Of a stretch of 57,113 bases of DNA, positions 2 through 438 are shown in pieces. The stretch is taken from the NCBI GenBank assembly GCA_028866835.1, contig JAGWHJ010000005.1:1-57113 (forward strand), given 5' to 3'. Each line of letters starts with the position of its first letter. Positions within the stretch are counted from its first letter, which is position 1. This DNA comes from Microcaldota archaeon. GTDB taxonomy: Archaea; Micrarchaeota; Micrarchaeia; Micrarchaeales; CABMGC01. A model generated the notes under the pieces. The model searched no databases, was not told where the DNA came from, and saw only the letters and a list, made by a program, of their open reading frames with translations. The translations under genes and the position numbers were made by a program.

Positions 2-325
2 AAAACTGAAACAGTATCTCTAATAAATAGGGACCAGTGTAAAAGGGACTTTACAATTGGTTATCTGCGTGGATTAGTAGATACTGATGGTTATTTGGAT
101 TTTAAAGATAGGGCAATAAAATATTGTACAGTATCTAAAGACTCGGCGAAGGACATAGAATCCTTGCTCTGGAGATTAGGAATAAGGAATAAAACTTATA
201 TTTATAATGATAAAAGAGGCAATAGAAAAACAACTTTTAGAGTCACGGTAACCAGAGATTTTGAAAAATTTGTCAATATTATTAAGCCTTTTCATTTCAA
301 TTATATTGATGCTCTGGTCGTCTAG
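2..325 (+). CDS. LAGLIDADG-family homing endonuclease, C-terminal fragment (runs off the left edge)
   Basis: Frame 2 is open from the window edge; translation ...FTIGYLRGLVDTDGYLDFKDRAIKYCTVSKDSAKDIESLLWRLGI... contains a LAGLIDADG-like motif (YLRGLVDTDGY). Stop at 323-325 lies inside the tRNA gene. Confidence 0.75.
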   Translation, partial: KTETVSLINRDQCKRDFTIGYLRGLVDTDGYLDFKDRAIKYCTVSKDSAKDIESLLWRLGIRNKTYIYNDKRGNRKTTFRVTVTRDFEKFVNIIKPFHFNYIDALVV

Positions 326-438
326 TGGTTAGGATGCGAGCCTGTCAACACACGTATTTGTGTGGCAGGGCGCTTGCGAGCTATTTGGAACTTGTTCTAC
401 TTAGCCAAGAAACCCGGGTCCGACTCCCGGCCAGAGCG
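311..438 (+). tRNA. tRNA-Asp(GUC) with two apparent introns (348-370 and about 379-411)
   Basis: Acceptor GCTCTGG(311-317)/CCAGAGC(431-437), discriminator G438; D arm GTCTAGTGGTTAGGAT; anticodon stem CGAGC(337-341)/GCTTG(372-376) with loop CTGTCA..C; T stem CCGGG(414-418)/CCCGG(426-430). 23 extra nt at 37/38 and 37 nt where about 5 are expected in the variable loop. Confidence 0.85.

Follow-up and report, generated by a model that had tools for sequence, protein, structure and literature searches.

A two-intron tRNA-Asp gene at a locus probably invaded by a tRNA-targeting LAGLIDADG homing endonuclease element in a Micrarchaeota archaeon

The window analyzed here is a 57,113-nt stretch of a Micrarchaeota archaeon (GCA_028866835.1) and constitutes contig C36 of an assembly of 1.09 Mb that is 88% complete. 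On the forward strand, an open reading frame (positions 2–325) that is open at the contig start and encodes the C-terminal 107 aa of a LAGLIDADG homing endonuclease (HE) runs into a tRNA-Asp(GUC) gene (positions 311–438). A sequence-only reading of this DNA had placed the tRNA gene correctly and proposed two introns, but overlooked the HE gene that runs into it and a partial second copy of the tRNA.

By comparison with an intronless orthologue in genome G023, exon 1 (311–347; nt 1–37 of the tRNA) holds the anticodon GTC (344–346), exon 2 (CGCTTGCG; 371–378) supplies nt 38–45, and exon 3 (412–438) comprises the end of the variable loop, the T arm, the acceptor strand and the discriminator base G438. 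Between them lie intron 1 (348–370; 23 nt) at position 37/38, which is delimited by folding and is found in several relatives, and intron 2 (379–411; 33 nt) in the variable loop at position 45/46. When 348–370 and 379–411 were removed, ARAGORN returned a complete 72-nt cloverleaf, tRNA-Asp(gtc). The spliced sequence is identical to the G023 orthologue (L033, 1501–1572) at 70 of 72 positions, with 2 differences, and the variable loop of that orthologue, CGAC, is exactly the loop that remains once 379–411 is removed. The T loop reads TCCGACT (419–425), with C at position 55, which is normally U (pseudouridine) in tRNAs; TCCGAAT is common to several relatives.

Intron 1 has a canonical bulge-helix-bulge (BHB) motif. 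Its inner helix, CACAC/GTGTG, was found as first described, whereas the framing around it had to be shifted: the strict motif has the central helix CUGU (342–345)/GCAG (365–368) and the bulges CAA (346–348) and GGC (369–371), in place of the 3' bulge GCG given earlier. For intron 2, the helices and bulges stand as originally drawn, with CUUG (373–376)/CAAG (406–409) as the central helix, CGA and AAA as bulges, and GCTA/TAGC as the inner helix; further pairing, GGAA/TTCT, lies deeper inside the intron. This motif has a 4-bp helix flanked by two bulges of 3 nt each but lacks a stable outer helix, and we refer to it as BHB-like. The extent of intron 2 was fixed at 33 nt, a one-base ambiguity (A379/A412) being settled by the BHB cutting rule.

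Both introns are present at the same sites in the tRNA-Asp genes of four relatives (G024, G063, clean1294 and G069). The intron 2 stem covaries and is not due to chance: in each of the five two-intron genes, 8–10 of the first 10 pairs of the inner stem were kept while the letters varied among genes, as many as three kinds of pair occurring at a position, and shuffling gave p ≤ 0.011 for the stem in every case. Among the relatives' tRNA-Asp genes compared, most are intronless, some have intron 1 only, and none has intron 2 without intron 1. The genome encodes an EndA that matches the epsilon2 enzyme of ARMAN-2 (4fz2) over nearly its whole length (E 4e-149), as well as RtcB, and EndA of the epsilon2 type tolerates relaxed motifs (PMC12397907; PMC4033280). 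Taken together, the orthologue without introns, the compensatory changes in the helices of four relatives and the presence of an epsilon2 endonuclease indicate that both insertions are archaeal BHB introns. On this comparative evidence, the earlier proposal of two introns is borne out and the gene is really interrupted by two small BHB introns, both of which the epsilon2 endonuclease would cut, with RtcB joining the exons.

Two other readings of the tRNA gene are hard to reconcile with these data. ARAGORN called no tRNA from the unspliced gene, nor after removal of intron 1 alone, and the unspliced gene fell below the Rfam threshold; such an escape from detection would suit a decayed copy with insertions in a cell served by another tRNA-Asp, and the 88% completeness of the assembly points the same way. 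However, all stems of the spliced tRNA pair, the exons match those of intronless orthologues, compensatory changes preserve the intron helices in relatives, and a search of the assembly for a second tRNA-Asp, named earlier as the check for a pseudogene, found none. We regard a decayed copy as very improbable. Even less credible is a mature tRNA that retains the variable-region sequence to form a long variable arm. This sequence does fold as a hairpin, but tRNA-Asp is a class I tRNA, the variable loop of the intronless orthologues has 4 nt, and the helix reaches into the anticodon stem and would therefore disrupt the mature fold.

The same overlap sets the two introns against each other, as the sequence-only reading had anticipated. 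Nucleotides 40–43 are shared between the central helix of intron 2 (CUUG/CAAG), which takes the 3' strand of the anticodon stem, and the anticodon stem, on which the framing of intron 1 depends. When folding was constrained to either alternative, the energies came out near-equal, at −48.7 versus −48.3/−49.8 kcal/mol (within about 1 kcal/mol), and the intron 2 motif is present in the free-energy minimum of all four two-intron genes folded. Because this motif and the anticodon stem are mutually exclusive, the introns are probably removed in order or through exchange between two folds. If intron 2 left first, the anticodon stem would become free to form the canonical motif of intron 1. The tRNAscan-SE 2.0 paper (PMC8450103) describes dependent introns, of which one has to be removed for the motif of the second to form, and tRNAs with multiple BHB introns are known from Thermoproteales and from ARMAN-1 and -2 (PMC4033280, PMC8450103). 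The tRNA-Asp gene resembles these in having two short BHB introns, one at 37/38 and one at a non-canonical position, and resembles the ARMAN system in its epsilon2 EndA, a type known for accepting relaxed motifs. It differs in its specific pair of sites, 37/38 and 45/46 in tRNA-Asp, and in the mutual exclusivity of the motifs, but is the same in kind. Since two-intron tRNAs were already known in ARMAN archaea, the introns alone are of modest interest; they give a clear comparative example of one tRNA whose two splicing motifs exclude each other and are served by the best-studied broad-specificity splicing endonuclease. Two tRNA-Asp genes with differing exons (L085, 1338–1462, and L214, 2259–2386) share an intron 2 that starts with AGTTTATTAGG, and the sisters of G069 are mostly intronless, which suggests horizontal movement.

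The open reading frame at 2–325 belongs to the LAGLIDADG_3 family (PF14528, E 1e-11), and its stop codon, TAG (323–325), falls in the D loop of the tRNA. A TATA-like element, TTATTAAGCC (279–288), is a putative promoter recognized by comparing the upstream regions of other tRNA-Asp genes; it lies 23–32 nt before the tRNA and inside the HE coding sequence, where it is supplied by the C-terminal codons (..IIKP). The N-terminal half of the HE was found on the minus strand of another contig of the same genome (G000), C39 (3–227), where it runs off the contig. The LAGLIDADG motifs are FIGIFAEDG on C39 and YLRGLVDTDG in the window. On its reverse strand, C39 carries in order tRNA-Tyr, a HIT-family gene, a 27-nt sequence, GCCTTGGTCGTCTAGTGGTTAGGATGC, that equals nt 1–27 of tRNA-Asp except at nt 3–4, and the HE N-terminal half. 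The corresponding order in G063 is the HIT gene, a complete 246-aa HE and, adjoining it, tRNA-Asp with both introns, and in G024 it is tRNA-Tyr, the HIT gene and the two-intron tRNA-Asp, with no HE at the site. The two HE halves align to residues 49–120 and 145–244 of the G063 HE. From this synteny and the complementary halves of the HE, which is split over the two contigs, C36 very probably continues C39 after a missing stretch estimated at about 75 nt. A structure model of the G063 HE predicts a two-domain LAGLIDADG endonuclease with an N-terminal helical domain, and its best matches among solved structures are the TliVMA intein endonuclease and I-DmoI.

A profile built from five such HEs was searched against 301 Micrarchaeota genomes, and the surroundings of 62 high-ranking non-intein hits, which were limited to open reading frames shorter than 400 aa to exclude inteins and picked regardless of their neighbours, were searched for RNA genes. 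Nine of the 62 loci lay in rRNA genes. At 27 of the 53 others, a tRNA on the same strand started within −45 to +50 nt of the HE end, whereas a simple, rough estimate from tRNA density (about 46 tRNAs per Mb) predicts such abutment for about 0.2% of genes (binomial p about 2e-57). An opposite-strand tRNA lay at the HE end in six further hits; in L142, L157, L167, L172 and L184, the 3' end of the HE gene meets or nears the 3' end of the tRNA on the other strand. HE lineages track tRNA isotype, with 10 label changes on the HE tree as compared with a shuffled mean of 21.2 and a minimum of 17, in a quick tree search that left many branches with modest support and with the isotypes of some intron-bearing tRNAs (e.g. 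L138, L145, L174 and L187) assigned by eye. Groups are visible for the HEs linked to Phe, Ala-CGC, Gly-CCC, Gln, Asn and Asp tRNAs.

Partial tRNA copies at HE loci were detected in only five of the 32 same-strand loci, including the present one, which weighs against end replacement as a general rule. Just before the HE gene in G226, G220, G120 and G103 there is a partial 5' copy of tRNA-Gly that ends near nt 25–31; the tRNA-Asp copy in our genome ends at nt 27. At L184, where the HE lies on the strand opposite the tRNA, a partial 3' piece of tRNA-Val lies upstream of the HE gene. The partial tRNA-Gly copy of G226 and G220 comes after a methionine adenosyltransferase gene, and the corresponding site in G221 and G225 has a complete tRNA-Gly without an HE. 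In G220, the stranded copy shares 23 matches with the HE-less relative and the downstream tRNA only 19, which supports a native stranded end and a foreign incoming one there; in G226 the stranded copy is not nearer, and the comparison does not discriminate, nor does it favour either tRNA-Asp 5' end in our genome. Upstream tRNA similarities at L167 and L200 were dropped as candidate displaced ends on account of complete neighbouring tRNAs.

These displaced ends are consistent with an element that disrupts the tRNA gene close to where the D arm ends and carries a whole tRNA along, in the manner of the mORFs of fungal mitochondria. HEs of this kind appear, from their genomic positions, to land repeatedly in tRNA genes and to replace one tRNA end so that the host survives. 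For the locus in the window, we consider it likely that a working two-intron tRNA-Asp gene stands where a LAGLIDADG HE element has invaded and replaced the tRNA end; the HE halves, their abutment on the tRNA, the partial 5' copy, the HE-less site in a relative, the parallel cases and the isotype-specific HE lineages all argue for this. In tRNA-Asp alleles that lack the HE gene, the enzyme would cut close to where the D arm ends or the anticodon arm begins, and repair from the HE-bearing copy would insert the HE gene together with a complete tRNA, leaving the resident 5' end stranded upstream of the HE gene. On this model, the 27-nt copy may be the older of the two tRNA-Asp 5' ends in this genome, and the complete gene would be the one expressed.

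The mORFs, known from atp6 of Allomyces and Glomus, are likewise HE genes that bring along a substitute for one end of the gene they target, the native end being displaced (PMC3630166). Unlike those elements, which target protein genes, the one proposed here would target an archaeal tRNA gene and replace its 5' end, or perhaps the tRNA 3' end where the HE is on the other strand. As with the HEs of archaeal rRNA introns, a LAGLIDADG enzyme is found in archaeal RNA genes; one of those, the HE of the rRNA intron Pog.S1213, co-converts the neighbouring short BHB intron Pog.S1205 (PMC4496867). By contrast, the HE described here adjoins the tRNA rather than lying inside an intron, and co-conversion of tRNA introns is only hypothetical in this case. 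In the literature searched, we found no description for archaea of tRNA-specific HEs with end replacement.

The tRNA part of this reading could be correct and its neighbourhood still have a different origin. At the tRNA-Thr(GGU) locus of Caldiarchaeum, a 5' tRNA fragment, an 813-bp open reading frame and a complete intron-bearing tRNA lie on the same strand; the authors of that study took the frame for a putative recombinase and proposed that a pNOB8-type integrase had inserted it (PMC3293823). The tRNA-Asp locus, where the frame is a LAGLIDADG HE gene, is like it in layout and in an insertion reaching nt 27, as judged from the published description. On this precedent, the HE could be a passenger at a site of integrase-type, pNOB8-like site-specific recombination, with the 27-nt copy serving as its att repeat. 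Integration characteristically leaves a tRNA end directly repeated on one side and the tRNA intact on the other, and that very similar locus has been so explained. We find this rather unlikely. In pNOB8/SSV-type elements an integrase gene lies between the repeated tRNA parts, whereas in the cases read in which a repeat exists, that interval holds the HE gene only and no integrase; moreover, HE lineage follows tRNA isotype, as expected if the enzyme chooses the target. The 27-nt copy has also to be considered as a split-tRNA half that is joined in trans to a 3' half, given that split tRNAs exist in archaea and that a promoter-like stretch lies upstream of the copy. To this we give almost no credence: the copy stops at nt 27 and continues directly into the HE gene, and a search of the same genome gave no matching 3' half. 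A viral vehicle for the HE element was rejected, as three distant HE relatives in viral contigs had no tRNA detected near any of them, and matches to the tRNA 5' pattern in viral contigs were unrelated tRNAs.

The two introns and the HE might in addition form a cooperating unit, a tentative idea that we think unlikely on present evidence. The introns would split the HE target and so make the incoming tRNA uncuttable, while the HE would spread the introns into intronless tRNA-Asp genes by co-conversion; such a unit would explain how archaeal tRNAs can gain introns. Two facts favour it: both introns are present at each of the two tRNA-Asp loci with an Asp-type HE (our genome and G063), and the intron pair is sporadic, as in G069 among its mostly intronless sisters. 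Against it, both introns also occur in G024, clean1294 and G069, where no HE was found next to the tRNA. No HE remnants were found upstream of HE-less two-intron tRNA-Asp genes. A general link between HEs and introns was not supported: 11 of 31 HE-linked tRNAs bear introns, as compared with 8 of 32 tRNAs in our genome (p 0.42). Directly upstream of an intron-1-only tRNA-Asp gene, on the minus strand of L083 (REEA73; 1533–1595), there is a similarity of 21 aa (KPFHINY; E 9.2) that may be a decayed HE C-terminus and was not counted.

The tRNA-specific HEs, more than the introns, carry most of the interest of this locus. If the proposed invasion and end replacement are correct, a whole phylum would have freestanding elements specialised for individual tRNA genes, and these would persist in an essential gene by supplying a replacement tRNA end. 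They would provide a testable origin for tRNA fragments, for tRNA replacement by horizontal transfer and possibly for archaeal intron gain, and the tRNA-Thr locus of Caldiarchaeum would receive a new reading.

Several further observations were made in the course of the survey. In G007, G099 and G095, two tRNA-Asp genes lie about 1.1 kb from each other; these pairs were rejected as HE cassettes, the gene between the complete tRNA-Asp and a copy without its 5' end being Fic-like (L115/L215 in G007, L209 in G099 and L210 in G095), and the interval in these three genomes is another cassette at the same tRNA. Near an HE gene in L094 (G283), on the reverse strand (2221–2333), there is a tRNA-Ala(GGC) with an apparent T-arm intron, and a tRNA-Pro with an apparent T-loop intron lies upstream of the HE in L200. 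At L143, the archaeal RNase P RNA gene is followed, after about 100 nt, by a LAGLIDADG gene that clusters with the tRNA-Phe-linked enzymes.
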